DNA of 64,000 nucleotides from Sphaerisporangium rubeum. GTDB lineage: Bacteria > Actinomycetota > Actinomycetes > Streptosporangiales > Streptosporangiaceae. The stretch lies in assembly GCF_014207705.1 (NCBI RefSeq), contig NZ_JACHIU010000001.1:2410501-2474500 (forward strand), written 5' to 3'. The notes beneath the pieces were generated by a model. That model did no database searches. It was not told the DNA's origin and saw nothing but the letters and a program-made list of their open reading frames with translations. The position numbers were made by a program, and so were the translations under genes. Within the stretch, counting starts at the first letter, position 1, and the number at the start of each line of letters is the position of its first letter. Positions 371 to 52,735 of this stretch are shown here, one piece after another.

Positions 371-388
371 CGCATCTCCTGAAATGCG
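371..388 (-). promoter_or_regulatory. Cluster operator, copy 1 (toward UDP-glucose dehydrogenase)
   Basis: On the minus strand it reads CGCATTTCAGGAGATGCG, a 5-8-5 inverted repeat. The block TGACTAT begins exactly 19 nt downstream, the same register as in the other copies. It lies 133 bp before the dehydrogenase start. Confidence 0.7.
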
Positions 389-421
389 AGGCAGGAATAC
401 CGCGCGGATGACAATGCGAAC

Positions 422-439
422 CGCACTCCAGGAGATGCG
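422..439 (+). promoter_or_regulatory. Cluster operator, copy 2 (toward the 625 operon)
   Basis: The sequence is CGCACTCCAGGAGATGCG. A TGTAGT -10-like hexamer starts 23 nt downstream (462-467), at the same offset as the -10-like hexamers of other copies. This implies a leader of about 150 nt before the dehydratase start. Confidence 0.7.
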
Positions 440-624
440 CGGCGGTCCCCCGAGAATGATCCTGTAGTCATGCGCCGCGGGGCTGTCGCCGCGGCGTTCT
501 CCTGAATGTTCCTCGCGACGCCGCGCCTCGGGCTCCGACGACGATGCCGCGGTCCGTGCACCTTTTATTTCTTTCTCCGTCACGACCGCCGAGCACCGCA
601 GACCCGATGAGTAAAGGACCGGAG

Positions 625-1929
625 ATGAATGACCACAAGGCACTGATCCTGGACGAGGTCCGCAAGTACCACCAGGACACCTTGACCGACGAGGGGTTCG
701 TGCCGGGGGTCAGCGAGATCTGGCCGACCGGCGCGGTGCACGACGTCGAGGACCGTGTCGCGCTGGTCGAGGCGGCACTCGAACTGCGGGTGGCGGCCGG
801 CACGCGCGCACGCAAGTTCGAGTCGGTGTTCGCGCGCAAGATGAAGCGCCGCAAGGCCCTGCTGACCACGTCCGGCTCGTCGGCGAACCTGCTGGCGGTC
901 TCGGCGCTCACCTCGCACCGCCTGCAGGACATGCGGCTGCGTCCCGGCGACGAGGTGATCACGGTCGCGGCGGCGTTCCCGACCACGGTCAACCCGATCC
1001 TGCAGAACGGCCTGGTCCCGGTGTTCGTGGACGTCGAGCTCGGCACCTACAACCCGACGGTGGACATGGTGGCGGCGGCCATCGGCCCCAAGACCAAGGC
1101 GATCATGATCGCGCACACGGTCGGCAACCCGTTCGACGTCGCGGACATGGCCGCGCTGGCCACCGAGCACGAGCTGTTCCTCATCGAGGACAACTGCGAC
1201 GCCGTCGGCTCGTTCTACGACGGCGAGCCCACCGGCACGTTCGGCGACCTCGCCACGGTGAGCTTCTACCCGGCGCACCACATGACGATGGGTGAGGGCG
1301 GCTGCGTCCTGACGTCCAACGTGGTGCTCGCGCGCATCGTGGAGTCGCTGCGCGACTGGGGCCGGGACTGCTGGTGCGAGCCCGGCGAGAGCAACACGTG
1401 TCTCAAGCGCTTCAGCTACCAGATGGGGTCGCTGCCGGAGGGCTACGACCACAAGTACATCTACTCGCACGTCGGGTACAACCTGAAGGCCACCGAGCTG
1501 CAGGCCGCGCTCGGCCTGAGCCAGCTCAACAAGGTGGACGACTTCTGCGCGACGCGGCGGCGCAACTGGCGCCGGCTGCGCGAGGGCCTGGACGCCGTGC
1601 CGCACCTGATCATGCCGGAGGCCACGCCGCGCAGCGACCCGAGCTGGTACGGCTTCGTCATCACCGTCGAGCCGTCCGCGCCGTTCGCCGCCGCCGAGCT
1701 GATCGACTTCCTGGAGAACCGCAAGATCGGCACCCGGCGGCTGTTCGGCGGCAACCTGCTGCGCCACCCGGCCTACACCGACGTGCCGCACCGTGTGGTG
1801 GGTGAGCTGACCAACACCGACATCATCATGACGCAGACCTTCCACGTCGGTGTCTACCCCGGGCTCACCGACGAGATGATCGACTACGTCGTCTCCTCGA
1901 TCAAGGAATTCGTGGAGGCGCGCGGATGA
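625..1929 (+). CDS. NDP-4-keto-hexose 3-dehydratase (E1/RfbH type, PMP-dependent)
   Basis: This 434-residue protein belongs to the DegT/DnrJ/EryC1/StrS aspartate-aminotransferase fold. The usual catalytic Lys is replaced by His within SFYPAHHMTMGEGG, which is the hallmark of the E1 3-dehydratases (RfbH, SpnQ, DdahC). These use PMP and a reductase partner to remove the C3 hydroxyl of a 4-keto sugar. Upstream KALLTTSGSSANLLA is the cofactor phosphate-binding segment. A cysteine-rich stretch (DCWCEPGESNTC) fits the iron-sulfur site of this group. The ATG at 625 follows AAAGGA; an earlier ATG at 607 lacks a ribosome site. It heads an operon with the glycosyltransferase and nucleotidyltransferase. 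No reductase partner or 4,6-dehydratase is in the window. A plain aminotransferase is unlikely because of the Lys-to-His change. Confidence 0.85.
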   Translation: MNDHKALILDEVRKYHQDTLTDEGFVPGVSEIWPTGAVHDVEDRVALVEAALELRVAAGTRARKFESVFARKMKRRKALLTTSGSSANLLAVSALTSHRLQDMRLRPGDEVITVAAAFPTTVNPILQNGLVPVFVDVELGTYNPTVDMVAAAIGPKTKAIMIAHTVGNPFDVADMAALATEHELFLIEDNCDAVGSFYDGEPTGTFGDLATVSFYPAHHMTMGEGGCVLTSNVVLARIVESLRDWGRDCWCEPGESNTCLKRFSYQMGSLPEGYDHKYIYSHVGYNLKATELQAALGLSQLNKVDDFCATRRRNWRRLREGLDAVPHLIMPEATPRSDPSWYGFVITVEPSAPFAAAELIDFLENRKIGTRRLFGGNLLRHPAYTDVPHRVVGELTNTDIIMTQTFHVGVYPGLTDEMIDYVVSSIKEFVEARG

Positions 1930-2022
1930 CGCGTGCCGGCCGGGGCCGCCGCCCCCGTAGGTCCCGGCCGGCGCCGCGTGCGCCTCGGACTCGTCACGGC
2001 AAGTCGTAGCTAGGAGACAGCA

Positions 2023-6812: not shown

Positions 6813-6830
6813 CGCATTTACGGAGATGCG
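6813..6830 (+). promoter_or_regulatory. Cluster operator, copy 3 (toward epoxide hydrolase)
   Basis: CGCATTTACGGAGATGCG is followed, 19 nt on, by CGACGATATT. GATATT at 6853-6858 is a plausible -10. The operator would cover the -35 region, as expected for an activator that contacts polymerase. Confidence 0.75.
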
Positions 6831-6891
6831 TGGGCCGAGTGTGCGGAGCGACGATATTGCGCGGACCCACCACTAAAGGATCAGGTGCACA

Positions 6892-8043
6892 ATGCGTCCT
6901 TTCCGTATTGAAATTCCGCAGGCCGACATCGACGACCTCAAGGCGAGACTCGCCGGCACCCGCTGGCCTGGGGAGATCCCCGGCCTCGGCTGGCAGCGCG
7001 GCGTTCCGGTGGAATACGTCAAGGAACTGGCCGAGTATTGGCGCACCGAGTTCGACTGGCGTGCCGTCGAGGAGAAACTCAACGCCTTCCCGCAGTTCCT
7101 CACCGAGATCGACGGCGCGAACATCCACTTCCTGCACGTGCGCTCACCCGAGCCCGACGCCACCCCGCTGATCATCACCCACGGCTGGCCGGGCTCCGTC
7201 GCCGAGTTCACCAAGGTCATCGGCCCGCTGACCGACCCCCGCGCGCACGGCGGCGACCCGGCCGACGCGTTCCACGTCGTCATCCCGTCCATCCCCGGCT
7301 ACGGCTTCTCCGGCCCCACCGACGAGCCCGGCTGGGACGTCGGCCGCGTCGCACGCGCCTGGGCCACGCTGATGAGCCGCCTCGGGTACGACCGCTACAT
7401 CGCGCAGGGCGGCGACTGGGGCAAGCCGATCTCGCTGCAGCTCGGCCTCGCCGACCCCGAGCACGTCGCAGGCGTGCACATCAACATGCTCGTCACCTTC
7501 CCCCCGGGTGAGGCGGCCATCGCCGAGCTGGACGGCGCGGACATGCAGCGCCTCATGCACGGCGGCCACTTCGCGCAGGACGGCACCGGCTGGCAGAAGA
7601 TCCAGTCCACCCGGCCGCAGACCCTCGCGTACGCGCTCACCGACTCCCCGGCCGGCCAGCTCGCCTGGATCGTGGAGAAGTTCTACGAGTGGACCGCCGC
7701 CGACAAGGCCCCCGAGGAGGTCGTGGACCGCGACGAGATCCTGACCAACGTCTCGATCTACTGGTTCACCGCCACCGCGGGCTCCTCCGCGCAGCTCTAC
7801 TACGAGTCCTCCTACGGCGACGAGGCGTTCGCGCGCACCTGGGGTGGCCCCTGGCCGCTGGAGATGCCGGCCGCGGTGGCCGTGTTCCCCTCCGACGCGA
7901 CCCGGCCGATCAAGCGCTGGGCCGAGCAGACGCTGCCGAGCCTCACCCGGTGGACCGAGTTCGAGGTCGGCGGCCACTTCGCCGCACTTGAGCAGCCCGA
8001 ACTGCTCGTCGGCGACATCCGCGCCTTCGCGCGTTCGCTCTGA
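6892..8043 (+). CDS. Enediyne-type epoxide hydrolase (SgcF/NcsF/KedF-like)
   Basis: This 383-residue alpha/beta hydrolase has the microsomal-type epoxide hydrolase N-terminal segment ([23 protein letters not shown]). The HGWP oxyanion motif is at 97-100, the nucleophile Asp175 lies in GGDWG, and a C-terminal catalytic His lies in [12 protein letters not shown]. It closely resembles SgcF and NcsF2, which open the epoxide of the 9-membered enediyne core to a vicinal diol, the attachment point for peripheral groups. This is one of the strongest enediyne markers in the window. It has its own operator at 6813, and the following FAD monooxygenase has another. Confidence 0.88.
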
Positions 8044-8045
8044 TC

Positions 8046-8063
8046 AGCACTCCAGGAGATGCG
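8046..8063 (+). promoter_or_regulatory. Cluster operator, copy 4 (toward FAD monooxygenase)
   Basis: AGCACTCCAGGAGATGCG with TGACGATTCC starting 19 nt downstream. It begins 3 bp after the epoxide hydrolase stop codon. Confidence 0.7.
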
Positions 8064-8176
8064 CGGCACGGCCACGCGTCCTGACGATTCCTGATGATGT
8101 GGTGGAAATCAGCGGATCCGCAGACCGGACCATGTGTCCGAGACCTGGTCCGCAGGACTTAAGGGAGGTGACCGCC

Positions 8177-9568
8177 ATGGGCAACCTCGTGGGCGACCGC
8201 GCGGTCGTGCTGGGCGGGAGCATGGCGGGTCTGCTGGCGGCGCGGGTGCTGTCCGAGGCCTACGCCGAAGTGACGATCGTCGACCGTGACAAGCTCATCG
8301 GGGTGACCACCGCCAGGCGCGGCGTCCCCCAGGGCCGCCACGTGCACGGCCTGCTGGCCCGCGGCCAGCAGATACTCGAAGAGCTCTTCCCCGGCTTCAC
8401 CGCCGGCGCCGTCGCCGCCGGCGTGCCGACGGGCGACCTCGGCGAGCTGCGCTGGTACTTCAACGGCGTGCGGCTCAAGCCCGGCACCACCGGCCTGACC
8501 TGCGTGTCGGCGGCCCGTCCCGTGCTCGAGGCGCACGTGCGCAAGGGTGTCGAGGCGCTGCCGAACGTGCGGTTCGTCGAGGAGACCGACATCGTGGGCC
8601 TGGTCGCCACCCCCGGCGGCGACAAGGTCACCGGCGTGCGGGTGCAGCGGCACGAGGCCGGCAGCACCGAGGAGGTGCTGGACGCCGACCTCGTCGTGGA
8701 CTGCACGGGACGCGGCTCACGCACCCCGGTCTGGCTGGAGGAACTCGGCTACGAGCGGCCCGCCGAGCAGCAGATCAAGATCAACCTGACGTACACCACG
8801 CAGGTCTTCCGGCTGCCGGACGAGAGCATCCTCAACGGCGACCTGTCGATCAACCCGGTGTCGTCGCCGTCGCACCCCCGCGGCGCGTTCTTCTCCCGCA
8901 TCGAAGGCGGCAAGTCCGCGGTGTCCATGACCGGCGTGCTCGGCGACAGCGCACCCGCGACCCCCGAGGGCTTCATGGACTTCGCCAGGTCGCTGCCGGT
9001 GCCGGACGTCTACGACGTCATCAAGGACGCCGAGCCGCTGGACGACCCGGTGGCGTTCCGGTACCCCGCGAGCGTGCGCCGCCACTACGAGAAGCTCGAC
9101 CGCTTCCCCGACCGCCTGCTGGTCATGGGGGACGCGGCGTGCAGCTTCAACCCCGTGTACGGCCAGGGCATGACGGTGGCGGCGCTGGAGTCCCTGACCC
9201 TGCGCACCCACCTCGCCAAGGGCGATCACCCCGACCCGCGCGCGTTCCTCAAGGACATCGCGGCCGTCATCGAGGTCCCCTGGGGCATCTCCGCCGGCGG
9301 CGACCTGTCCTACCCCGAGGTCCAGGGCCCCCGGCCCTTCATGGTCCGCATGATGAACTCCTACATGGCCAAACTCCAGGCCGCCGCCACCCAGGACGGC
9401 CGCATCACCCGCACCTTCATGCGGGTCGCCGGCCTGGTCGATCCCCCGCAGGCGCTGATGGCCCCCGGCATGATCTTCCGGGTGCTCCGCAACGCCGGCA
9501 AGGCCCCCCGCAATGTCGTCACCCCACCGGTGACCGAACCCGCGGTGCCGAGTCGTCCCGCCGCCTGA
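8177..9568 (+). CDS. FAD-dependent monooxygenase (class A, UbiH/PHBH-like)
   Basis: The protein has 463 residues. The N-terminal FAD motif is VVLGGSMAGLLAARVL, a mid-protein segment DLVVDCTGRGSRTP contacts the cofactor, and the second FAD motif GDAACSFNPVYGQGMT lies near residue 320. Family members hydroxylate or epoxidise with NAD(P)H and O2. Context suggests core oxygenation or epoxidation tailoring, but the substrate is unknown. It is not a tryptophan-type halogenase: the WxWxIP motif is absent. ATG 8177 has GGGAGG 8 nt upstream. Confidence 0.82.
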   Translation: MGNLVGDRAVVLGGSMAGLLAARVLSEAYAEVTIVDRDKLIGVTTARRGVPQGRHVHGLLARGQQILEELFPGFTAGAVAAGVPTGDLGELRWYFNGVRLKPGTTGLTCVSAARPVLEAHVRKGVEALPNVRFVEETDIVGLVATPGGDKVTGVRVQRHEAGSTEEVLDADLVVDCTGRGSRTPVWLEELGYERPAEQQIKINLTYTTQVFRLPDESILNGDLSINPVSSPSHPRGAFFSRIEGGKSAVSMTGVLGDSAPATPEGFMDFARSLPVPDVYDVIKDAEPLDDPVAFRYPASVRRHYEKLDRFPDRLLVMGDAACSFNPVYGQGMTVAALESLTLRTHLAKGDHPDPRAFLKDIAAVIEVPWGISAGGDLSYPEVQGPRPFMVRMMNSYMAKLQAAATQDGRITRTFMRVAGLVDPPQALMAPGMIFRVLRNAGKAPRNVVTPPVTEPAVPSRPAA

Positions 9569-9587: not shown

Positions 9588-9605
9588 CGCACGCACGAAG
9601 ATGCG
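9588..9605 (+). promoter_or_regulatory. Cluster operator, copy 5 (toward the UvrA-like gene)
   Basis: CGCACGCACGAAGATGCG with TGAGGCTGAC starting 19 nt downstream. Copy 12 has TGACGCTGAC at the same offset. Confidence 0.7.
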
Positions 9606-9633
9606 GCACCCTCACGGGGCCTGTGAGGCTGAC

Positions 9634-9701: not shown

Positions 9702-12011
9702 ATGAGCGCCACCGCCGACACGCCAGAGACCGACGGCATCCGGATCACCGGTGCGCGTGAGAACAACCTCAAGGACGTCTCCCTCACCCTCCCCAAGAAC
9801 AAGATCACCGTCTTCACCGGCGTGTCCGGGTCAGGCAAGTCCTCCATCGTCTTCGACACCATCGCCGTCGAGGCACAGCGCCAGCTCAACGGCACCTTTC
9901 CCGCGTTCATCCGCAACCAGCTGCCGAAGTACGAACGACCCCGCGCCGACGCCGTCGAGAACCTCACCGCGCCGGTCATCGTGGACCAGAAACCCGTCGG
10001 CGGCAACGCGCGCTCCACGGTCGGCACGATGACCGACATCTACTCGATGATCCGCGCGCTGTTCGCACGGTACGGCTCACCCACCGACGGCCTGGTGTCC
10101 ACGTACTCGTTCAACGACCCCAGAGGCATGTGTCCCGAGTGCGACGGCCTCGGCCAGAGCGTGCGCGCCGACGTCGACCTGATGCTCGACAAGTCCAAGT
10201 CGCTCAACGAAGGCGCCATCCGCCTCCCCAACTACAGCGTCGGCACCCCCGACTGGCAGCTGTACGGCAACTCCGGCAAGCTCGACCCCGACAAGCGCCT
10301 CGCCGACTACACCGCGGACGAGTGGCAGTTGTTCCTGCACGGCAGCGGCTTCAAGGTCGAACTGAAGACCAAGAGCGGCGCCTACAAGACCAACTACGAA
10401 GGCGTGGTCGACCGCTTCACCCGCCTCGGCGTCAAACGCGACCTCAGCACCGTCAGCGAACGCACCCGCGAGGCCATCGCCAAATTCATCACCGAGGGCC
10501 CCTGCACCTCCTGCGACGGCGCACGCCTCAACCCCACGGCACTCGCCACGAAGATCGACGGCCGTAACATCGCCGACTGGTCGAGCATGCAGATCACCGA
10601 TCTGATCGCCGTCCTCGCCGCCATCACCGACCCGGTCGCGACCCCCCTGGCCACCGCCGCACGCACCGCACTGGACCGCGTCGCCGCCATCGGCCTCGGC
10701 TACCTCAGCCTCGACCGCGCGACATCGACTTTGTCCGGCGGCGAGAGCCAGCGCCTCAAACTGGTCCGCCACCTCGGCAGCACCCTCACCGGCATGACGT
10801 ACATCTTCGACGAGCCCAGCGTCGGCCTCCACCCCCGCGACGTGGGCCGCCTCAACGACCTCCTGCGCGCGCTACGCGACCAGGGCAACACCGTCCTGGT
10901 GGTCGAACACGACCCCGACGTCATCGCCATAGCCGATCACGTCGTGGACGTAGGCCCGAAAGCCGGCGCCAACGGCGGCGAGATCGTCTACCAAGGCACC
11001 GTGGCAGGCCTCCGCACCGCCGACACACGCACCGGCGAAGGCCTCCGCCGAGCCGTCCGCACCAAGACCACCTTCCGCACCCCCACCGGCACCCTCCCCG
11101 TCCGCGACGCCACCCTCCACAACCTCAAGAACGTCTCCGTGGACGTCCCCACCGGCGTCCTGACGTCCGTGACCGGCGTGGCCGGCTCCGGCAAAAGCAC
11201 CCTCATAGCCGAGGTCTTCGTCAAGACCCACGAAGGCACCGTCTACGTCGACCAGTCGGCGATAGCCGCCTCGTCCCGCTCCACCCCCGCGACGTACCTC
11301 GGCCTGATGGACCCCATCCGCACCCTGTTCGCCAAGTCCACCGGCACCGCCGCCTCCCTGTTCAGCTTCAACAGCGAAGGCGCCTGCCCCGAATGCCAGG
11401 GCCGCGGCGTCATCATCACCGAACTGGCCTACATGGACCCGGTGACCACCCACTGCGACGCCTGCGAAGGCCGCAGATTCAAGGACGAGGTCCTCTCCCA
11501 CAAACTCCGCGGCAAATCCATAGCCGACGTCCTCGAACTGACCGCGGAAGAAGCCACCACCTTCTTCACCGAGGCCCCCCTACGCCGCAAACTCCGCTCC
11601 CTCATAGAGGTGGGCCTCGACTACCTGACCCTGGGCCAACCCCTCAGCACCCTCTCCGGCGGCGAACGCCAAAGAATCAAACTGGCGACCCAGCTCACCG
11701 CCACCGGCACCGTCTACGTCCTCGACGAACCCACCACCGGCCTCCACATGTCCGACGTGGACACGCTGCTCACCCTGTTGAATACCTTGGTGGACAAGGG
11801 CAACACCGTAATAGTCATAGAACACAACCTCGACGTCATCCAGCAGTCCGACTGGATCATCGACCTCGGCCCCGACGGGGGCAAACAGGGCGGAGAAATC
11901 ATCTTCACCGGCACCCCCGCCGACCTACTGACCACCGCCGAATCCCTCACCGCCGAACACCTCCGCCACTACCGCGCCACCCACACCCTGGAACCGGCCC
12001 CTGCTCTCTGA
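9702..12011 (+). CDS. UvrA-like ABC ATPase, enediyne self-resistance
   Basis: This 769-residue protein is shorter than housekeeping UvrA (about 950). It has two ATPase modules: Walker A GVSGSGKSSIVFDT near the start and GVAGSGKSTLIAEV near residue 490. Signatures are LSGGESQR and LSGGERQR, and the zinc-binding Cys pairs are CPECDGLG and CPECQGRG. This short UvrA class acts in drug self-resistance (for example DrrC); related proteins occur in C-1027 and other enediyne clusters, where they are thought to act on drug-damaged DNA. It has its own operator and a palindromic leader. Repair versus efflux coupling is not decided by sequence; no membrane domain is present. Confidence 0.88.
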   Translation: MSATADTPETDGIRITGARENNLKDVSLTLPKNKITVFTGVSGSGKSSIVFDTIAVEAQRQLNGTFPAFIRNQLPKYERPRADAVENLTAPVIVDQKPVGGNARSTVGTMTDIYSMIRALFARYGSPTDGLVSTYSFNDPRGMCPECDGLGQSVRADVDLMLDKSKSLNEGAIRLPNYSVGTPDWQLYGNSGKLDPDKRLADYTADEWQLFLHGSGFKVELKTKSGAYKTNYEGVVDRFTRLGVKRDLSTVSERTREAIAKFITEGPCTSCDGARLNPTALATKIDGRNIADWSSMQITDLIAVLAAITDPVATPLATAARTALDRVAAIGLGYLSLDRATSTLSGGESQRLKLVRHLGSTLTGMTYIFDEPSVGLHPRDVGRLNDLLRALRDQGNTVLVVEHDPDVIAIADHVVDVGPKAGANGGEIVYQGTVAGLRTADTRTGEGLRRAVRTKTTFRTPTGTLPVRDATLHNLKNVSVDVPTGVLTSVTGVAGSGKSTLIAEVFVKTHEGTVYVDQSAIAASSRSTPATYLGLMDPIRTLFAKSTGTAASLFSFNSEGACPECQGRGVIITELAYMDPVTTHCDACEGRRFKDEVLSHKLRGKSIADVLELTAEEATTFFTEAPLRRKLRSLIEVGLDYLTLGQPLSTLSGGERQRIKLATQLTATGTVYVLDEPTTGLHMSDVDTLLTLLNTLVDKGNTVIVIEHNLDVIQQSDWIIDLGPDGGKQGGEIIFTGTPADLLTTAESLTAEHLRHYRATHTLEPAPAL

Positions 12012-12053: not shown

Positions 12054-12110
12054 GCCACGGCTACTTACCACCGCGCGACCGGTGGAATCATCACGCGGGT
12101 GCCGATTCGG

Positions 12111-12950: not shown

Positions 12951-13148
12951 GACAGCCCCCGTGCGGTGTAATTTGAGCCGTGCGGCACTCTTGGGAATCT
13001 TACCAATCGCCGGAATTTTTGGCAAGGACGAAGTGGCCGGACGACACGCCTTGCGTACGTCAGGCACATTGCCAATGTGCGGAAAATATGCCGTCCGGCC
13101 GTACACTCCGCCTCGTATGTCGTAATAGGACGACCAGCCGGAGTCATA

Positions 13149-19412: not shown

Positions 19413-19507
19413 GAGCCGGGACTCCACCACGGGAGTAAGATGCGGGAGAGTGGCGGGCGACTCGACGCTCGCCATTCTTCCCGAGACCAGGGATCGGAGC
19501 CGGCGCG

Positions 19508-20311: not shown

Positions 20312-20411
20312 GCCGGCCGCTGGAAGGAGGATGGACTCGGGTGACTTCGACCTGTTTCACGTTCCCTCTCTGAGCACGGGTTTTGTCGGTCCTGCAGCCT
20401 AAAATTGGGGT

Positions 20412-33346: not shown

Positions 33347-33381
33347 CGACGGCCATCCATTGTTGAGAAAGGACGCTGCAC

Positions 33382-34914: not shown

Positions 34915-34923
34915 GGAGCCCGC

Positions 34924-37244: not shown

Positions 37245-37394
37245 TCGATCTCCTCCTGCTCGCCACGGCATGGCGTCTCGGGTCGCACGTAAGGGAGCGT
37301 CACGTCGGTCCCGCGGTCGGCGGGCTCGCGGAAGTCGTCGGCCGGACGGCGGGGCACGGTTCACGTCGAATGATTCACGCCGCGGCCGGGCCGC

Positions 37395-37412
37395 CGCATC
37401 TTTGGGGTTGCG
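37395..37412 (-). promoter_or_regulatory. Cluster operator, copy 11 (toward solute-binding-like gene)
   Basis: The minus strand reads CGCAACCCCAAAGATGCG. A TGAATCAT block lies one base off the usual register. Confidence 0.6.
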
Positions 37413-37463: not shown

Positions 37464-37481
37464 CGCACGCACGGAGATGCG
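37464..37481 (+). promoter_or_regulatory. Cluster operator, copy 12 (toward the beta-tyrosine operon)
   Basis: CGCACGCACGGAGATGCG with TGACGCTGAC starting exactly 19 nt downstream. Confidence 0.75.
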
Positions 37482-37565
37482 TGCCGCCGGACACGGGTGT
37501 GACGCTGACCCCATGGCCGGACGTGGCGGAGAGCCGGACCATCCACGGACAAAGGACCTGCGGCA

Positions 37566-40454: not shown

Positions 40455-42059
40455 GTGACTCTGGTCGAGACCGAACTGTCTGTTGATTTCGACGGTGAGA
40501 GCCTGGACATCGCCGGTGTGCGGCGGGTCGCCGAGGAGTGGGCACCGTGCGCGGTGGCACCCACCTCGCTGGCGAGGGCCGCCGAGAGCAGGCGCATGTT
40601 CGAGGACACCATCAGGGACGGTGTGCCGGTCTACGGCGTGACCACCGGCTACGGCGAGATGATCTACATGCTGGTGGACCTGTCCAAGGAGGTGGAACTT
40701 CAGACCAACCTCGTGCGCAGCCACAGCGCCGGCGTCGGCCCGGTGTTCGCCGAGGACGAGGCCAGGGCCATCCTCGCGGCCCGGCTGAACGCGCTCGCCA
40801 AGGGCTACTCGGCGGTACGTCCCGAGCTGCTCGAACGCCTCGCGCTGTACCTGAACCTCGGCATCACCCCCGCGATCCCGGAGATCGGCTCCCTCGGCGC
40901 GAGCGGCGACCTGTCGACGCTGGCGCACATCGCGGTCACCGTCATCGGCGAGGGGTACGTGCTGCGCGACGGCAAGCGGGTCGAGACCGGCCCGGTGCTG
41001 CGGCAGCACGGCATCGAACCGCTTGAGCTGCGGTTCAAGGAAGGCCTGTCGCTGATCAACGGCACCTCCGGCATGACGGGACTCGGCGCGCTCGTCGTCG
41101 GCCGGGCCCTCACGCAGGTGCGGCAGGCCGAGATGGTGACGGCCCTGGTCGTGGAGACCATGCGCGGGTCCAAGAGCCCGTTCCTCGCCGAGGGCCACGA
41201 CATCGCGCGGCCCCACCAGGGCCAGATCGACACCGCGTGGAACATGCGGGCCCTGATGAACGGCAGCGCGCTGGCCCTCGACCACGCCGAACTGCGCCGC
41301 CAGGCCGCCGAGCAGCACAACGGTGACGGGGTGTCCCGCACCGAGGTCTACATGCAGAAGGCCTACACCCTGCGGGCCATCCCGCAGGTCGTCGGCGCGG
41401 TGCGCGACACCCTGTACCACGCCACCGAGAAGCTGCACATCGAGCTGAACTCCTCCAACGACAACCCGCTGTTCTTCGAGGGCCAGGAGGTGTTCCACGG
41501 CGCGAACTTCCACGGCCAGCCGGTCGCGTTCGCCATGGACTACGTCACCATCGCCCTCACCCAGCTCGGCGTGTTCTCCGAGCGGCGCACCAACCGCCTG
41601 CTGAACCGCCACCTCAGCGACGGGCTGCCGGAGTTCCTCGTCGCCGGCGACCCCGGCCTGAACAGCGGCTTCGCTCCGGCGCAGTACCCGGCGACCGCGC
41701 TGGTCGCCGAGAACAGGACCATCGGCCCCGCCAGCACCCAGAGCGTGCCGTCCAACGGCGACAACCAGGACGTCGTCAGCATGGGTCTCATCGCGGCGCG
41801 CAACGCGCGCCGGGTGCTCGGCAACAACAACCGCATCCTCGCGGTGGAGTTCCTCGCCGCCGCGCAGGCGGTCGACCTGTCCGGCCGGTACGCGGGCCTC
41901 AGCCCGGCGAGCAAGGCGACGTACGACATGGTGCGCTCGCTGGTGCCGACCCTCGACAAGGACCGGTACCTGTCCGACGAGATCGAGCTGGTGGCCGCCG
42001 CGCTGTCGCGTGGCGACCTCCTCCAGGCCGCCGCGAGCGCCGGCGTCGAACTGCGCTGA
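40455..42059 (+). CDS. MIO-dependent tyrosine 2,3-aminomutase (SgcC4-like)
   Basis: The 534-residue protein belongs to the histidine ammonia-lyase family. The MIO prosthetic triad is Ala149-Ser150-Gly151 in GSLGASGDLS. The catalytic Tyr is Y60 in VYGVTTGYGEMIYM. Long stretches match what I remember of SgcC4: KEVELQTNLVRSHSAGVGP, EIGSLGASGDL, and the ENRTIGPASTQSVPSNGDNQD region. It converts L-Tyr to beta-tyrosine. Its tight link with the adenylation gene and the carrier and condensation genes downstream defines a beta-tyrosine ester arm, the hallmark of C-1027, maduropeptin and kedarcidin type enediynes. A simple ammonia lyase is less likely given this match. Confidence 0.92.
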   Translation: MTLVETELSVDFDGESLDIAGVRRVAEEWAPCAVAPTSLARAAESRRMFEDTIRDGVPVYGVTTGYGEMIYMLVDLSKEVELQTNLVRSHSAGVGPVFAEDEARAILAARLNALAKGYSAVRPELLERLALYLNLGITPAIPEIGSLGASGDLSTLAHIAVTVIGEGYVLRDGKRVETGPVLRQHGIEPLELRFKEGLSLINGTSGMTGLGALVVGRALTQVRQAEMVTALVVETMRGSKSPFLAEGHDIARPHQGQIDTAWNMRALMNGSALALDHAELRRQAAEQHNGDGVSRTEVYMQKAYTLRAIPQVVGAVRDTLYHATEKLHIELNSSNDNPLFFEGQEVFHGANFHGQPVAFAMDYVTIALTQLGVFSERRTNRLLNRHLSDGLPEFLVAGDPGLNSGFAPAQYPATALVAENRTIGPASTQSVPSNGDNQDVVSMGLIAARNARRVLGNNNRILAVEFLAAAQAVDLSGRYAGLSPASKATYDMVRSLVPTLDKDRYLSDEIELVAAALSRGDLLQAAASAGVELR

Positions 42060-44081: not shown

Positions 44082-45680
<1,599 letters not shown>

Positions 45681-45783
45681 CTCAACTCCTCGAATCGGTA
45701 GTGGTCGAGCGATGCGTCCGGTGCGGACGGGGCTCGAACGAAAGTCCGCGATTCGTCCATCGTCACCTCTGCGGCACCCGCGC

Positions 45784-45801
45784 GGCATCTTTGAGGTTGC
45801 G
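45784..45801 (-). promoter_or_regulatory. Cluster operator, copy 13 (toward phenol hydroxylase)
   Basis: The minus strand reads CGCAACCTCAAAGATGCC with TGACGATGGA starting exactly 19 nt downstream. Confidence 0.75.
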
Positions 45802-45816: not shown

Positions 45817-45834
45817 CGCACTCCAGAAGATGCG
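45817..45834 (+). promoter_or_regulatory. Cluster operator, copy 14 (toward oxygenase 2 and SgcJ-like)
   Basis: CGCACTCCAGAAGATGCG; the +19 block is GGACCTT. Copies 13 and 14 lie back to back in a 286-bp divergent promoter region. Confidence 0.7.
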
Positions 45835-45966
45835 CAGGTACGGGGCCTGGTGGGACCTTCGGAAGGGTGGGCGGCCTGCGGTTCGCCGGTGCGTCCGCGA
45901 CCTGTCACACCGGCCGTCCGGCGTTCGCCGGCTCCACGGTTTCCGGACTGTCACCCCAAGGAGGAA

Positions 45967-47151
45967 ATGGTGCTGACGACCGAGGTTCCCACCCGGGAAC
46001 AGCTAGTCGGCCGGGCGACCGAACTCGTGCCGCTCCTGCGTCAGAACGCGGCATGGTCGGAGGAGAACCGGCGCATCCACCAGGACTCGATCGACGCGCT
46101 CGCCGACGCCGGCGTCTTCAAACTGCGCACCCCCGCGCGGTACGGCGGCTACGAGGCCGACACCCGCACGCTCGTCGAGGTGGCCGCCGAGCTCGGCCGC
46201 GGCGACGCGTCCACCGCGTGGGTCGCCTCGGTGTACTGGATCCCGACCTTCATGGCCTGCCTGTTCCCCGACGAGGTGCAGGACGAGGTCTTCTCCACCC
46301 CCGACGTGCGGGTCTGCGGCACGCTCAGCCCGTCCGCGATGGCCACGCCGGTCGACGGCGGCATCGTCGTGAACGGCAAGTGGAGCTTCATCAGCGGCGC
46401 GCACCACGCGCACTGGCAGGAGATCATCGCGGTGCTGGTGCCGCCGGAGGGTGAGCCCATGCCGGTCATGGCGCTCGTGCCGATCTCCGAGCTGGCGATC
46501 ATCGACGACTGGCACACCTCCGGGCTCAAGGGCACCGGCAGCGTGAGCACCGCCGCGCAGAACCTGTTCGTGCCATCCGCGCGGGTCATCCCGCTGCCGG
46601 CCATCCTCATGGGCCAGTACGCCTCCAAGATCAACGCCAACAGCCCCATCTACCGGGCCCCGCTGCTGCCGGTCGCCTCCGCGTCGTCGGTCGGCACCGT
46701 CGTCGGCCTCGCGCGCGCCGCCAAGGACGCCTTCTTCGAGCGCCTGCCGGACCGCAAGATCACCTACACCGGCTACGGCAGCCAGGCCGAGGCCCCCGTC
46801 ACCCACCTGGCCGTGGCCGAGGCCGCCGCCAAACTCGACCAGGCCGAGTTCCACGCGCTGCGCCTCGCCACCACGGTCGACACCAAGTCCGTCGACGGCA
46901 CTCCCTGGACCCTGGAGGAGCGCGTCAAGGCCCGCGCCGACATGGGCCAGGTCGTCAAGCTCGCCAAGGAGTCGGTCGAGATCCTCGCCTCCGCCAGCGG
47001 TGGCTCGTCCATCTACACCGACGTCCCGATCCAGCGCATCGCGCGCGACATCCAGGCCGTCAACCTCCACGCGCTCATGCACCCGGAGACCAACGCCGAA
47101 CTGTACGGCCGGGTCCTCTGCGGCCAGGCCCCCGACACCCTCTACATCTGA
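45967..47151 (+). CDS. Class-D flavin monooxygenase 2 (acyl-CoA dehydrogenase fold)
   Basis: The 394-residue protein resembles the one at 37566 in order of motifs: LADAGVFKLRTPARYGGYEAD, DASTAWVASVYWIP, GGIVVNGKWSFISGAHHAHW, GLKGTGSVSTAAQNLFVP. Reduced-flavin oxygenases such as HsaA share this layout. The AAGGAGG ribosome site is too close to ATG 45967, so GTG 45970 may be the real start. The SgcJ-like gene follows by 104 bp. Substrate is unknown; having two paralogues suggests two separate hydroxylations. Confidence 0.78.
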   Translation: MVLTTEVPTREQLVGRATELVPLLRQNAAWSEENRRIHQDSIDALADAGVFKLRTPARYGGYEADTRTLVEVAAELGRGDASTAWVASVYWIPTFMACLFPDEVQDEVFSTPDVRVCGTLSPSAMATPVDGGIVVNGKWSFISGAHHAHWQEIIAVLVPPEGEPMPVMALVPISELAIIDDWHTSGLKGTGSVSTAAQNLFVPSARVIPLPAILMGQYASKINANSPIYRAPLLPVASASSVGTVVGLARAAKDAFFERLPDRKITYTGYGSQAEAPVTHLAVAEAAAKLDQAEFHALRLATTVDTKSVDGTPWTLEERVKARADMGQVVKLAKESVEILASASGGSSIYTDVPIQRIARDIQAVNLHALMHPETNAELYGRVLCGQAPDTLYI

Positions 47152-48032: not shown

Positions 48033-49088
48033 ATGTCGCCTGAACCAGAGACCTTCCGGCCCCCGGCCGGGGCGCCATCGTCGTCCGGCACACCGGCGCA
48101 GGTGACCGATCTCCTCGGAGGTCTGCTTCACATCGCCTACGCCGAACGTCCCGAGGTCGTCACCGTCGCCACCGGCTTCACCCCTGACTCGGCACGCGAC
48201 CGCGCGGAGCTGCGCGCCTCAGCCCTGGCGTCCTTGCGCGCGCTCACCGTGCCGGTCCCGGAGAAGGAACCCGCCGGGTCGTACCCGGCGAACGCCGCCG
48301 CTTCGTCCCAGCTACCCATCAGAGTGCTGGGATTGGCCGACTTCATGCCCGATCCGCCTGATGACGGCCCCGAGCGGGTCTCCGGGATCGGTGTCCTCAC
48401 CGGCGAGCGGTACCTGGTCCCCGCCGAGGTCGTCTGGACCGATGAGGCCGGAGCACGAGTGGAGCCGACCCTGGTCGGTCTCGTCGCCGACCGCCGGGAA
48501 GGTGTGTCCGGCGCCATAGCGGACCTGCTCGCGCACGACGTGGTGACCCGTTGGTGGGCCGACCCCCGTACCCCGTTGCACAACATGTCCCGCCGCGTCC
48601 CCGGCATGCTGCCGTCCGGAGTCGCCGACGCGCTGACCATGATGCGCCTGAGGGTGTCGGCGTTCGTGCTCCCCGCCTCCGACTTCCCCATAGCCGTGGT
48701 AGGCGTCAGCGGAGACGGCACCACCATCGCCGCCGCCGCGTCCAGGTCCGTCACCGCCGCCGTCCGCGAGGCCTTCCTCCGCGCGATGGCGGCCCGCGCG
48801 CAGCCCTGGGACACGCTCCCCACCGCCGACTCCCTGCGCCGCCTCACCGTCTGGCACCGCGAGACCGATTACCTCACCCACCTGGAGCGCTGGGCCACCG
48901 CCTCCGTCCCACCCCCCTCGGAGCCCTCCGACCCTCTCGGCTGGGCCGACATCGCCTGTCGCCGCTTCGGCCACGAACCCATCCTGATCGGCCGTACCCC
49001 TGCCACCGCCGCGAAAGTCATCTGCCCCGGCGCCGCCTGCCACCACCGCGCCCCCGCCGGCACCCCCCTCCCGTGTCCCGTCCCCTGA
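48033..49088 (+). CDS. YcaO-like protein with degenerate active site (tentative)
   Basis: The 351-residue protein has the order of YcaO blocks: GERYLVPAEVVW, then a GLVADRREGVSGAIADLLAHDVVTRWW helix region (YcaO: G-A-x-eeAi--lLElIERDA), then VSGDGTTIAAAASRSVTAAVREAFLRAM (YcaO: g-Al--Al-Ea). Residues at the usual ATP/Mg Glu positions are Asp and His, so it may not bind ATP. The tail ends PLPCPVP, like the Pro-rich C-terminus of azoline-forming YcaO enzymes. No precursor peptide is seen nearby. It is not a known enediyne gene. The family call is by pattern only. Confidence 0.45.
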   Translation: MSPEPETFRPPAGAPSSSGTPAQVTDLLGGLLHIAYAERPEVVTVATGFTPDSARDRAELRASALASLRALTVPVPEKEPAGSYPANAAASSQLPIRVLGLADFMPDPPDDGPERVSGIGVLTGERYLVPAEVVWTDEAGARVEPTLVGLVADRREGVSGAIADLLAHDVVTRWWADPRTPLHNMSRRVPGMLPSGVADALTMMRLRVSAFVLPASDFPIAVVGVSGDGTTIAAAASRSVTAAVREAFLRAMAARAQPWDTLPTADSLRRLTVWHRETDYLTHLERWATASVPPPSEPSDPLGWADIACRRFGHEPILIGRTPATAAKVICPGAACHHRAPAGTPLPCPVP

Positions 49089-49128
49089 CCCCGGGAGATC
49101 AGGTCTCCTGTCGGTGGTGACGGTGTTG

Positions 49129-49659
49129 TCAGCTTGTTTGCCGGACGGTGTCGTCTGGGGCTCGGCGGGTCGTGTTCTCGTGGGCCGGGTGGCGGTCGAT
49201 CGGGGGTGGCTGGTCGGGGCGGGTGTGGACCAGGCGCCATAGGAGGGTGGTGAACTGGGTGCGTTCGGTCGGGGTGAAGGGGGAGAGGTAGGTGTCGAGG
49301 GCCTCGTGGATGGCGGGGGAGATTTTGTGGCGGAGGAGGGTTTGGCCTTCTGGGGTGAGGCCTATGGCGTATTTGCGGCGGTCGTCGGGGTTGCGGGCCC
49401 GTTGGACCAGGCCGAGGCGTTCCAGGCCGTCGACGACGCTGACCATTGTGGTGCGGTCTATGCCGTGGGTGCGGGCCAGGTCCTGTTGGGACTGGGGGCC
49501 GGCGGAGTCGATGGCGGTCAGGACGATGAAGTCTTTGGAGCGGAGGCCGAAGGGTTCTACCGCGGACTCGAGGATTTCGACGTAGAGGTCGTGGGCCTGA
49601 GTCACGAGCAGCGTCAGGGCCTCCGGACGGGGGCGATGGTCGCTGGGAGAATCACTCAC
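49129..49659 (-). CDS. MarR-family regulator 1
   Basis: The 176-residue winged-helix protein has the MarR pattern: KDFIVLTAIDSAGPQSQQDLARTHGIDRTTMVSVVDGLERLGLVQRARNPDDRRKY. The DxRxxR-type wing motif (DDRRKY) is present. It ends in a loose C-terminal tail. The gene is divergent from MarR 2 across 643 bp. MarR regulators often sense phenolic compounds, so it could respond to pathway aromatics or the product. Confidence 0.88.
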   Translation of the reverse strand: MSDSPSDHRPRPEALTLLVTQAHDLYVEILESAVEPFGLRSKDFIVLTAIDSAGPQSQQDLARTHGIDRTTMVSVVDGLERLGLVQRARNPDDRRKYAIGLTPEGQTLLRHKISPAIHEALDTYLSPFTPTERTQFTTLLWRLVHTRPDQPPPIDRHPAHENTTRRAPDDTVRQTS

Positions 49660-50302
49660 ATCGTCCCCTTAGGTAGGCATATCTCGGTTAATGCGCAAGA
49701 TGGGCCTTATTCCGTAATGCCAGGAATATGGCAAGAGTGTCACACGCAGTCATGGGGTGCGGCAACAGCTCACGGCCGAGTCGGGGCCGGCTCCCGATCG
49801 GTCCCGGTTCGGCCGTTGGAGGTCCGGTGTTCAGGCTGGATCGGGATGGGGATGGTTCCTGTTCAGGTCGGGTGGTGTGGCGAGGCGCGGTGTCCGGGCC
49901 GGGTGGTGCGGCGAGGAGTGTGTCCGGGCCGGGTGGTGCGGCGAGAGGTGGGGTGCGGGTCGGCGTTGGGGTGACGGGGTTCCGGCCGGGGCCGGTCGGG
50001 GTGTGGGGAGGTTTCTGCCGGGGGGTGAGGGGTTGTCGCCGGGGTGCGGCATGAGGTCGGGGTGCTGTCCGGCCTGGTGTGGTGGAAGGCCGGGTGATTC
50101 CCCTTGGTTGGTGCCGGGTTTGTCGGATATTGCGGAGATGCTTGGCGCACCGAAAATCGTCAGTAATGCTGATTGACAGAGATGCTGATGGTCTGTGATC
50201 CTGATGGAAGGTGTAGGGGGCGGTATAGGGGTCCGGAGTGGGGTGTCCTGTGCCGTCGTACGGAGATGGAGTCGGTGGTGGCCGAGCGCTGGGGTGGTGG
50301 GG
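49660..50302. other. Divergent MarR intergenic region with 30-bp tandem repeats
   Basis: It contains three tandem 30-bp units (49861-49950) and a poor operator-like match near 50125-50142. A symmetrical GGCAT...ATGCG pair at 49676-49695, just before MarR 1, could be its autoregulatory site. No gene is supported. Confidence 0.45.
49861..49950. repeat. Three tandem 30-bp units
   Basis: Units start at 49861, 49891 and 49921. The last two differ at only a few positions; the first is more diverged. The shared core is GGGTGGTGYGGCGAG. Confidence 0.75.
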
Positions 50303-50788
50303 ATGACGGGACCACGTGGGACGGGGCTTGACGCGATGGGGGTCAGGCGGAGGGTGGACGGCGGGACGGAGCTGCTGGCCGAGTCGACGGGGTGGCTGCT
50401 CAACGGGGTGGCGCGTGCGGTGACGGCGGAGCTGGAGCAGGCGTTGCGGCGGGACGATCTGCGGTGGCGTGAGTACGGGGTGCTCGGCACGCTGGAGGCC
50501 ACCGGAGCGTTGTCGCAACAGGAGATCGGACGGCGCCTCGGGGTGGACCGTTCGACGATGGTGCACCTGATCGACGTGCTGGAGGACCGCGGGCTGGTGG
50601 CGAGGAGCCGGGACCGTGCGGACCGGCGGGCTTATTCCATAGAGCTGACTGCGGCCGGCCGCGAGCTGCTCGCCGAGGTGCTCCACCCGGTCACCGCCGA
50701 GGTGCACGAGCGGGTCATAGGCAGGCTGACCAGCGAGGATCGCGCCACTCTCAATCGCATCCTGGCCGAACTGGCCGGCACCGAGTGA
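50303..50788 (+). CDS. MarR-family regulator 2
   Basis: The 161-residue protein has a MarR core: WREYGVLGTLEATGALSQQEIGRRLGVDRSTMVHLIDVLEDRGLVARSRDRADRRAYSIELTAAG. ATG 50303 was chosen over earlier in-frame ATGs, whose added residues do not look like MarR; 50336 is an alternative. It directly precedes the TrmB/LuxR-type regulator by 138 bp. Two MarR genes side by side suggest ligand-responsive control, perhaps of export or resistance. Confidence 0.82.
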   Translation: MTGPRGTGLDAMGVRRRVDGGTELLAESTGWLLNGVARAVTAELEQALRRDDLRWREYGVLGTLEATGALSQQEIGRRLGVDRSTMVHLIDVLEDRGLVARSRDRADRRAYSIELTAAGRELLAEVLHPVTAEVHERVIGRLTSEDRATLNRILAELAGTE

Positions 50789-50810
50789 TCGGGTGCCGGT
50801 TATGGGGTGA

Positions 50811-50838
50811 TTTACGAATCATCTAGGTCTCTGATAGT
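50811..50838 (+). promoter_or_regulatory. Candidate promoter of the TrmB/LuxR regulator
   Basis: TTTACG and GATAGT are 16 bp apart in an AT-rich stretch 90 bp before the start codon. This is a motif match only. Confidence 0.35.
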
Positions 50839-50926
50839 TTGTAATCCCACATATCCATTGGAGCAGGTTGAGGGCGGATCAAACCCGTGGTCGCCCTGGG
50901 TGAGGGACATGGCCAGGAGGCGAGCC

Positions 50927-51913
50927 ATGGACGTATCCGTCATCGGGATCACGGCCGAGGCCGTGGAGGTCTACCGCTACTTCCTCCGGCATCACGGAGA
51001 AGGCGTCGGTTCGGTACGGCAGGCGCTCGGTCTCGACCCCGACAGCGTCGAGGCCGCCGTCGAGTCCCTGGAACGTCTTTCCCTGCTCGACCTCAGCGAC
51101 CGGCACAAGGTCGTCGCCACCGAGCCCGCCATCGGCATCGAGCGCCTCATCGAGCGGCGCCTCGGTGAGCTCAACACCGAGATCCGCCGCGTGCTGTCGG
51201 CACGCGACGTCATCGCCACCCTGGTCGAGGACCAGAAGCACGGCGAGGCCGCGGTCTCCGTGCTCGACATCGAGCGGGTCGAAGGGCTGGACCGGGTACG
51301 CCAGCGGCTGGACGACCTCGGGTTCTTCTCCTACAAGGAGACCCTGTGCCTGCACCCCGGCGGCCCGCTGTCCCGCGGCGCCATCGAGACCGCGCTGCCG
51401 CTCGACACCAGGTCGCTGCGCCGCGGTCTCGCCGTCAAGGCCGTGTACCACCCCAAAGCGCTCGACGACCCGCTGATGGCGGCCTACCTGCGTGACGTCG
51501 TCGGCCTCGGCGGCCAGATCCACATCACCGAGGACCCGATGGACCGCATGGTGATCTTCGACCGCAGCGTCGCGGTCGTCCCCATCCACCCCAAGGAGAG
51601 TGCACGGGGTGCGCTCCTGGTCAGGGAACCGGGCCTTGTGTCGCAGCTCGTCACCTACTTCGACGGGGTGTGGAACGACGCCGTCGACTTCCGCGAGTAC
51701 ATCGAGCCGAGCGACGACAAGCCGCACCTGTCGGACCTGGAGCGCCGCGTCCTCGCGGTGATGGCGACCGCGGACAAGGACGAGATCGCGGCCCGCGAGC
51801 TGGACGTCTCGGTCCGCACCTACCGCAGGTACGTCGCCGACCTGATGGCGAGACTCGGCGCGGTCAACCGCTTCCAGGCGGCCCTGCGCGCCAAGGAGGA
51901 GAACTGGATCTGA
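50927..51913 (+). CDS. TrmB-like / LuxR-type transcriptional regulator
   Basis: The 328-residue protein begins with a TrmB-like winged helix (AEAVEVYRYFLRHHGEGVGSVRQALGLDPDSVEAAVESLERLSLLD). A middle domain with PLD-like strands follows. The C-terminal HTH is LuxR/NarL-like: LSDLERRVLAVMATADKDEIAARELDVSVRTYRRYVADLMARLGAVNRFQAALRA. ATG 50927 has AGGAGG 8 nt upstream, so upstream in-frame codons are discounted. This is a frequent pathway-specific activator type in actinomycete clusters. LuxR HTH pairs bind inverted repeats of about 18-20 bp, so it is the best candidate for the 18-bp operator (inference). Confidence 0.82.
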   Translation: MDVSVIGITAEAVEVYRYFLRHHGEGVGSVRQALGLDPDSVEAAVESLERLSLLDLSDRHKVVATEPAIGIERLIERRLGELNTEIRRVLSARDVIATLVEDQKHGEAAVSVLDIERVEGLDRVRQRLDDLGFFSYKETLCLHPGGPLSRGAIETALPLDTRSLRRGLAVKAVYHPKALDDPLMAAYLRDVVGLGGQIHITEDPMDRMVIFDRSVAVVPIHPKESARGALLVREPGLVSQLVTYFDGVWNDAVDFREYIEPSDDKPHLSDLERRVLAVMATADKDEIAARELDVSVRTYRRYVADLMARLGAVNRFQAALRAKEENWI

Positions 51914-52025
51914 TCGCCGGCCGGAGGCGGTTCCATGAACGGGACCGGGCCCGGCCGGCTTCAGGAAGGACCGGTCCGGCCGGCGGTCAGGCCCGGGAGA
52001 GAGGCGGATCCGGTCCGCGGCGGGT

Positions 52026-52349
52026 TCAGTTCCACTGGGGTCGCTGCCCGTGGCGGCGGGCCGTGATCCAGTAGCCGAGGTGGGGCCCGGGGCCCACGCC
52101 GAGCGTGTGGCAGCTCACCAGACGCCAGTGGCTGACCTCGGGGTTGGCGAGCACGTTGATCACCTTGGCGCGTACCTCGGAGTTGGTGAGATCCTCGTCG
52201 GTGTTCACCCGGATCACGATGTCGCCGGTCGCCTGCTTCAGGTCCTTGCGCCACCGCGGAGGCAGCAGCGCGAGGATGCGGATGCCGTCGATCGGGGACT
52301 GGACGCCTCCGCCGTCCACCGTGCGGCGCAAGGTCAGCTCAAACAACAT
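52026..52349 (-). CDS. Small conserved-looking protein of unknown function
   Basis: The 107-residue protein starts MLFELTLRRTVDGGG and has a mixed alpha/beta pattern ending LGYWITARRHG. I do not recognise a family. ATG 52349 has AGGAA upstream; codon bias supports coding. It is isolated between the TrmB/LuxR regulator and the epimerase and may be regulatory or structural. Confidence 0.55.
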   Translation of the reverse strand: MLFELTLRRTVDGGGVQSPIDGIRILALLPPRWRKDLKQATGDIVIRVNTDEDLTNSEVRAKVINVLANPEVSHWRLVSCHTLGVGPGPHLGYWITARRHGQRPQWN

Positions 52350-52717
52350 GGCGGACCGTTCCTGCGGACGCGGCGGCGGGACGGCCGGACGGAGCCGTCC
52401 TGTGGGGGATGGGGGTGGCCGGGGAGAGGCCGGGGGTGGTGCCGGGGCGAGCGAACGCGCCGGGGTCCTCGGGGGCCCAATTGCCGGCGGCGGGAATTGA
52501 TTCCGCCGGAGGCATGACCGGGGTCTCCATTTTCTCAATCTCTTTTCCGTGGCGGTGGATTGGTTCTCCCGCGACCAACTCTCCGCTCCGTACCGGCCTG
52601 CTTCCAGGGAGGCGGCAGGCAGCAAGTTGCCGGTACGTGACCGCTTCCTGCCACTACAGACGGCAGGTGCCGCCATCGGCCGCACGGCGTCGCGCCGGCC
52701 GCCGCCGGGAGGCTGAA

Positions 52718-52735
52718 AGCACACTCGGAGATGAC
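52718..52735 (+). promoter_or_regulatory. Degenerate cluster operator, copy 16 (toward the epimerase)
   Basis: AGCACACTCGGAGATGAC keeps the left half-site and GGAGATG core, but the right half is incomplete and the +19 block does not match. Confidence 0.4.

Follow-up and report, generated by a model that had tools for sequence, protein, structure and literature searches.

What does a short DNA element repeated in front of the biosynthetic genes of an actinobacterial cluster do there, and which protein reads it? The question is raised by a stretch of 64,000 nt from Sphaerisporangium rubeum (positions 2,410,501-2,474,500 of contig NZ_JACHIU010000001.1, assembly GCF_014207705.1; genome of 7,504,604 bases), hereafter the window, which by gene calling and Pfam assignment contains part of an enediyne cluster. 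From the comparison of this cluster with its relatives we consider it probable, with good confidence, that this element serves as operator for the AraC-family activator of the cluster, an orthologue of SgcR2. The region analysed was the window with 60 kb on each side (184 kb), and Pfam families were assigned for about 60 of its proteins. Coordinates are those of the window, with negative values upstream of its first base. Genes are the predictions of a codon-usage caller and their starts are approximate; sites flagged as lying inside a gene may reflect over-extended starts.

The element had been described in the original prediction as a cluster-wide operator, and all 14 copies that it rated as good were found again at their positions and on their strands. 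They are given here with the -10-like hexamer that follows each copy and the spacing between the two, together with a weaker candidate further to the right:

371-388, minus strand: operator; -10 GACTAT at 346-351, 19 nt; faces a two-gene operon exiting the window leftwards, UDP-glucose dehydrogenase (assigned by eye) and NAD epimerase (Pfam)
422-439, plus strand: operator; -10 GATCCT at 458-463, 18 nt; before a DegT aminotransferase, 625-1929
6813-6830, plus strand: operator; -10 GACGAT at 6850-6855, 19 nt; before an epoxide hydrolase, 6892-8043
8046-8063, plus strand: operator; -10 GACGAT at 8083-8088, 19 nt; before a FAD monooxygenase-like gene, 8168-9568
9588-9605, plus strand: operator; -10 GAGGCT at 9625-9630, 19 nt; before a UvrA-like protein, 9702-12011
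23050-23067, plus strand: operator; -10 GAGCAT at 23087-23092, 19 nt; before O-methyltransferase and P450 genes, 23204-25471
27758-27775, plus strand: operator; -10 GACGAT at 27795-27800, 19 nt; before an AMP ligase, 27894-29414
29439-29456, plus strand: operator; -10 GACGAT at 29476-29481, 19 nt; before an acyltransferase, 29647-30843
32344-32361, minus strand: operator; -10 GACGCT at 32320-32325, 18 nt; before a FAD oxidase-like gene, 30898-32280
32391-32408, plus strand: operator; -10 CACCAT at 32428-32433, 19 nt; before three methyltransferases, 32507-35763
37395-37412, minus strand: operator; -10 AATCAT at 37370-37375, 19 nt; before a solute-binding protein, 35814-37244
37464-37481, plus strand: operator; -10 GACGCT at 37501-37506, 19 nt; before an acyl-CoA dehydrogenase-like gene, 37566-38813, then adenylation and aminomutase-type genes
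45784-45801, minus strand: operator; -10 GACGAT at 45759-45764, 19 nt; before an HpaB-type hydroxylase, 44082-45680
45817-45834, plus strand: operator; -10 GACCTT at 45854-45859, 19 nt; before an acyl-CoA dehydrogenase-like gene, 45967-47151
55738-55755, plus strand: weaker candidate operator, 26.1 bits; -10 CACAAT at 55775-55780; before a small protein, 55888-56457

The element is real and specific to the cluster. A position weight matrix (PWM) built from the 14 sites scored above 16 bits 17 times in the 184 kb, at 16 distinct places (one hit is the reverse reading of the copy at 27758); in five Markov-2 simulations of equal length the counts were 0, 0, 1, 0 and 0. Because the PWM was built from these very sites, pattern counts over the whole genome are the fairer tests. 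Without mismatch, the bare 18-mer occurs three times in the genome, each time in the window; a single mismatch adds eight matches, namely four in the window, one 7.5 kb upstream of it and three elsewhere. These last three (460668, 5923948 and 7268768) lie inside called genes, as does a two-mismatch match at 906769, and all four were dismissed as chance. With up to two mismatches the pattern is at background (61 matches, 59 for the reversed control), so the composite of element and hexamer alone was used to judge specificity. It matched 17 times in the 7.5 Mb: 15 matches fall within 80 kb at 2.376-2.456 Mb, which is this cluster, and the other two are at 1.080 and 5.856 Mb; the control had none. 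This is the genome-wide distribution expected of the cluster-wide operator first proposed. A composite model that scores element, spacing and hexamer together brought 23 hits above 12 across the 184 kb, of which two are other counted sites read in reverse; the reversed sequence gave none.

Two places outside the cluster deserve mention in their own right. At C1:5853214-5856085 (L016:3215-6086) there are two intergenic copies scoring 30.5 and 26.4 bits with the composite model, among genes for PHP-domain, DUF6879, globin, FAD enzyme, FemAB-like and MFS proteins, a possible second regulon locus. At C1:1080423 (L020:5424) a single intergenic composite match, possibly an outlying member of the regulon, lies upstream of a 441-aa protein that looks like a CoA-ligase-type enzyme.

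Beyond the 14 copies, the composite model found seven further sites, at -34569, -34257, -19732, -7529, -4826, -3457 and +55738, six of which lie upstream of the window, in the direction of the enediyne polyketide synthase (PKS). The enediyne cassette itself is found 17-34 kb upstream of the window and comprises two DUF1702 genes, the PKS (identified from size, context and homology, without Pfam), a thioesterase, a flavin reductase, a P450, a DUF5987 protein and a GMC oxidoreductase. Inside this cassette, and outside the window, is the gene of the AraC-family regulator (-20788 to -20021, minus strand; L010:19212-19979). Composite hits above 18 number 21 in the 184 kb: 19 head called units, and the other two are those at 55738 and -34569. 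Put differently, between -34.2 and 47.7 kb an operator heads 19 of the 40 called transcription units, within 330 bp upstream and on the right strand. The regulon extends from the enediyne PKS operon, about 35 kb upstream of the window, to 45.8 kb, with an isolated site at 55.7 kb and no composite-model operators between about 12 and 23 kb. As to the cluster boundaries that the element had been expected to reveal, the regulon ends on the right at 45.8 kb, bar that isolated site; upstream it runs on well beyond the window, and it has a gap within it. The isolated site has a counterpart in a related genome (G001), in which a strong operator precedes the homologue of the same small protein (L100:18990-19541). 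The four copies previously listed as weaker (6673, 42103, 52718 and 59435) all fall below the composite threshold of 11. Among them only 52718 scores with the element PWM (13.2), and its sequence is kept beside three other clusters, yet it fails the composite model and was rejected.

The gene content of the regulon agrees with the original prediction for the sugar, epoxide hydrolase, UvrA-like (probable resistance), methylation and beta-tyrosine units. As to the anthranilate part, the tryptophan dioxygenase/kynureninase-like operon at 25536-27508 (minus strand), which would make anthranilate, has no operator directed at it.

The same operator recurs in enediyne clusters of several actinobacterial families, that of C-1027 among them. 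Homologues of the cluster within the genus (G009, G010, G007 and G002) carry arrays of mostly intergenic copies. Around 21 AraC loci from 20 genomes of the family we counted 78 PWM hits above 13, mostly intergenic, against 4 with the reversed PWM. Eighty named AraC loci (1.51 Mb) from Streptosporangiaceae, Streptomyces, Lentzea, Saccharothrix, Actinokineospora, Actinomadura, Micromonospora and others gave 106 such hits, 82 of them intergenic, and the control 10. In 38 loci (L163-L200, mostly Streptomyces, some of whose sites were in the training set) the composite model scored 65 hits above 12, with none in reverse. Six genomes were searched with a looser pattern, and in three of them the matches gather on the contig that bears the AraC gene, with 5 of 6 in S. 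globisporus JCM 4378, where this contig holds a C-1027-type cluster with sites before many units, 10 of 13 in CNQ085 and 3 of 5 in CB02366; for CB02058 it is 1 of 5 on the presumed AraC contig (C14). The whole record of SGLP1, the S. globisporus C-1027 plasmid (NZ_CP013739.1), contains 21 composite hits above 12 and none in the reversed control; 17 lie within the C-1027 cluster (20.0-91.6 kb), and 16 of these are intergenic, 64-213 nt from the next gene. No S. globisporus site was in the composite training set, which did include other Streptomyces sites.

In G001 the enediyne genes are on two contigs, C15 and C45, each with an AraC gene (76% and 67% identical to that of the window cluster). 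The C45 locus was considered as an AraC locus outside an enediyne cluster, a possibility ruled out by the enediyne tailoring genes present there; these indicate a split cluster with two regulator copies, not a dissociation of regulator and cluster.

The anatomy of the element was profiled over 131 non-redundant intergenic sites from many clusters, with hexamer offsets of 15-24 left open. The consensus is (C)GCAHT-N4-RAGATGC(G), followed after 19 or 18 nt by a -10 hexamer, RACGWT. Positions 2-4 (G, C, A) are 99-100% conserved, A (44%) and C (29%) are the commonest bases at position 5, 70% of sites have T at position 6, position 11 is a purine, and AGATGC at positions 12-17 is 85-99% conserved at each base. 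A2 and T6 are the most informative bases of the hexamer, and there is a weak preference for A 2-5 nt upstream of the element. The hexamer begins after 19 nt in 77 of the 131 sites, after 18 nt in 31 and at another offset in 4; in 19 it was unrecognised. In a control window a hexamer was found at any of the ten offsets in 25 of 131. The 21 sites above 18 in the 184 kb divide into 16 at 19 nt and 5 at 18 nt, under a model that already favours both spacings. A near-fixed distance to the promoter, the activator-like geometry initially suggested, is well supported, with 108 of the 131 hexamers at 18-19 nt, but "exactly 19 nt" has to be relaxed to 19 or 18 because of the 31 sites with the shorter gap. 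A separate -10 hexamer had also been placed at +23, for which we obtained no support; the -10 is the GACGAT-like block itself, whose first base lies 20 nt past the element. Within the gap no base exceeds about 0.2 bits, and there is no -35-like conservation. The near-fixed spacing to a conserved -10-like hexamer could also be read as the mark of an alternative sigma factor, whose promoters would consist of an upstream box and a -10, without any activator site. This is highly improbable, as the conserved block is 18 bp long and ends 18-19 nt before the hexamer, both longer and further upstream than a -35 hexamer; moreover, no sigma-factor family appeared among the Pfam-scanned proteins, which are part of the region's genes, and across genomes the block tracks the AraC gene.

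The site is directional, with the promoter on its RAGATGC side, and an inverted repeat is not its main feature. When the bases facing each other across the centre are compared, the three GCA/TGC pairs are complementary in 85-98% of sites, the outermost pair in 48% and the remaining pairs in 11-36%; the 21 sites average 21.7 bits forward and -0.6 reversed. The 18-bp inverted repeat of 5-8-5 layout originally described is therefore mostly apparent, the symmetry being limited to GCA...TGC. The same observation weighs on the idea that the LuxR/GerE-type protein encoded at 50927-51913 binds the site as a dimer on a palindrome. That protein, a weak GerE match, sits at the right edge of the regulon and has been kept next to two homologous clusters as well as in the L100 locus, but the one-sidedness of the site, and the lack of any match to it in SGLP1, where the same operator occurs, make it a very unlikely reader.

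The original prediction had named no regulator; the regulators of the two clusters narrow the choice. In SGLP1, where the names SgcR1-SgcR3 were assigned from annotation and position, they are SgcR1 (StrR-like), SgcR2 (AraC), a probable SgcR3 and a 147-aa helix-turn-helix (HTH) protein; around the window cluster we recognised the AraC protein, an XRE-type, two MarR and the GerE-type regulator. Only AraC/SgcR2 is common to both clusters among the regulators compared (54% identity, E 9e-76). Neither SgcR1 nor the 147-aa HTH protein finds a match in the 184 kb at E <= 1e-3, just 57 residues of the probable SgcR3 were matched there (E 0.001), and the MarR, GerE-type and XRE proteins of the window cluster have no match at E <= 1e-4 in SGLP1. 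A StrR/SgcR1-type (ParB-like) activator has some claim to the operator, since such activators are cluster-situated and in many Streptomyces clusters are encoded directly upstream of the AraC gene. SgcR1-like genes occur in the flanks of 40 of the 80 named AraC loci, and sgcR1R2 in trans is reported to complement the loss of SgcR3 in C-1027 (PMC2657911). Nevertheless, tblastn found no SgcR1 homologue in the 184 kb despite the full set of operators, and the other 40 loci also lack an SgcR1-like gene, many of them with operators, so that this reading is extremely unlikely. StrR sites are, besides, long palindromes of the GTTCGA type and differ from the operator.

The AraC-family protein is the proposed reader. 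Its sequence matches Pfam HTH_18 and two HTH_AraC stretches (two HTH motifs), its relatives in the PDB by sequence include RamA, MarA, Rob, SoxS and AdpA, and in both clusters its gene occupies the cassette interval that runs from the P450 to the DUF5987 gene. In 40 orthologues, 50-85% identical to the protein of the window cluster, the lettered positions of the recognition segments MFSKFHFxRxF and GYxSxGTFSxRF are invariant. The operator also follows this gene across genomes. Among 250 genomes of the family, the strict operator pattern is present in 40 of the 67 that are AraC-positive (E <= 1e-40) and in 2 of the 183 that are AraC-negative; 90 of its 92 matches fall in AraC-positive genomes, and the control gave 1 match. 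One of the two AraC-negative genomes with the pattern (G138) has a divergent AraC, and the other (G176) showed no enediyne marker. Among 394 genomes of the class, the 10 with an AraC at E <= 1e-70 are the same 10 that have at least four composite sites, while none of the other 384 has four and three have three. One of the four matches in G513 is a sequence also present in many other genomes of that family and is unlikely to be an operator.

Several observations weigh against this assignment and are gathered here. Between -34.2 and 47.7 kb, 21 of the 40 called units have no site directed at them, including the AraC gene and the tryptophan dioxygenase operon, though some of these units may belong to longer operons. 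Of the 80 named AraC loci, 23 have no PWM hit above 13 in their 10 kb flanks; five of these (L169, L170, L173, L174 and L178) do have composite hits, and the contig of L180 has many further along. Four of the 21 hits in SGLP1, with 13.3-19.6 bits, are outside the cluster. The strict pattern is missing from 27 of the 67 AraC-positive family genomes. In the class, 12 genomes have weaker AraC homologues (E 1e-52 to 1e-25), and 10 of them, including G506 with 50% identity, lack composite sites altogether. The remaining two have two and three sites, respectively, and two of the ten (G156 and G169) carry variant sites by PWM. A lone AraC with 58% identity and no cassette has no site nearby (L157). 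Lastly, co-occurrence alone cannot separate AraC from another cassette-linked factor, because AraC and the enediyne cassette travel together, and no clean AraC-free enediyne cluster was found among the eight "AraC-negative" enediyne genomes. These genomes failed as a negative control, and the corresponding within-enediyne Fisher test (p 0.003) was not used, because seven of them have a divergent AraC (36-40%) with site-like hits; the eighth was seen in fragments only.

How would one AraC protein act on these promoters? They show a recognisable -10 (RACGWT) but lack a -35, whose part the bound activator presumably plays. With the hexamer at -12 to -7, the site would lie at about -49 to -32, where a -35 hexamer would be. 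One AraC monomer would place its two HTH motifs in successive major grooves, over the distal GCAH box and the proximal RAGATGC box, and from there contact region 4 of sigma, perhaps also the alpha C-terminal domain, as in class II activation, so that one protein would turn on many transcription units of the cluster together. In this scheme the binding by AraC, the activation, the start sites and the polymerase contacts are predictions read from the DNA.

The layout has a close parallel in the class II sites of MarA, SoxS and RamA, which are reported to lie in forward orientation near -41 without a recognisable -35, with a box of GCAC-7N-AAA or similar, and MarA to bind as a monomer in two adjacent major grooves (PMC10268841, PMC8811837, PMC6900184). 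Like them, the operator is an asymmetric, monomer-type site with a distal GCAY-like box, a promoter-proximal box 7 nt on and no recognisable -35, and its predicted position, taken from the -10-like hexamer, is near -40. This likeness leads us to propose class II activation by an SgcR2-type AraC monomer. There are differences: the box here is GCAH-7N-GAT, in the same orientation, with RAGATGC rather than AAA as its second part, the regulated set is one biosynthetic cluster and not a scattered stress regulon, and the C-terminal 140 or so residues of the AraC protein have no Pfam match.

A site over the -35 region could also block polymerase, and the AraC protein might then be mainly a repressor, or a dual regulator. 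In five genomes of one genus (g46; G156, G169, G214, G238 and G241; L206-L212 and L215-L218) a variant of the operator lies directly upstream of a divergent AraC gene, which suggests autoregulation. We consider a mainly repressing or dual role very unlikely, as the lack of a recognisable -35 fits dependence on an activator and both SgcR2 and TnmR7 are reported to be positive regulators (PMC8210685, PMC9464397).

Activation by the AraC protein agrees with what has been published on its relatives. SgcR2, with 54% identity, the same P450-DUF5987 interval and the same operator array in its cluster, is described as a positive regulator of C-1027 production (PMC8210685). UcmR7, reported as 34% identical to SgcR2 (PMC8210685), and, by name and family, TnmR7 are more distant relatives; TnmR7, the AraC protein of a ten-membered cluster, is reported to promote expression of the core enzymes and to have been insoluble, which kept it from electrophoretic mobility shift assays (PMC9464397). 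SgcR3 is reported to have bound only the sgcR1R2 upstream region among eight regions tested (PMC2657911), and a cascade from SgcR3 through SgcR1/SgcR2 to the operator-headed units fits for this reason.

The cluster genes in the window comprise sugar, epoxide hydrolase, UvrA-like, methyltransferase, adenylation, condensation, aromatic aminomutase-type and HpaB-type hydroxylase genes, one of which is a tailoring gene that serves as a marker for recognising related clusters:

40455-42059, plus strand: aromatic amino-acid lyase/aminomutase family gene (tyrosine aminomutase-like)

The operator-free stretch at 12100-22900 encodes a large RHS-repeat protein, a glyoxalase-family protein, an esterase and others, and looks like an insertion outside the regulon. 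At the other side, 48102-61146 holds a carboxyltransferase, GerE-type and MarR regulators, a phosphopantetheinyl transferase, and GDSL and WS/DGAT proteins; this block is kept beside homologous clusters, and in G001 it is partly beside the second AraC gene with an operator pair. ARAGORN called a 95-nt tRNA-Gly at 52284-52378, which is long for a tRNA-Gly, overlaps a called gene and may be false; an Rfam scan of the window gave no match.

Enediynes are antitumour payload compounds, with C-1027 as a model of how they are made. Genetics has already revealed regulators of the SgcR2/TnmR7 type, and the 131 examples of the operator make their DNA target directly testable. Among the open-licence papers on enediyne regulation that were searched, we saw none that describes an operator for this group. 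AraC class II sites as such are already known, and what is unusual is their uniform, pathway-wide use, which would make this a clear actinobacterial example of class II AraC geometry at many promoters of a single pathway. A defined operator offers probes, reporters, predictions of co-control and help with cluster boundaries, and is a sequence tag for locating enediyne clusters and outlying genes. On balance we lean towards the view that nine-membered-type enediyne clusters across actinobacterial families share a promoter grammar of their own (operator, 18-19 nt, RACGWT, no -35), with the SgcR2-type AraC protein as its specificity factor. If so, outlying genes of the regulon and the borders of the cluster would be readable from DNA alone, and these clusters would be silent without an SgcR2-type protein, carrying their own promoter code between hosts.

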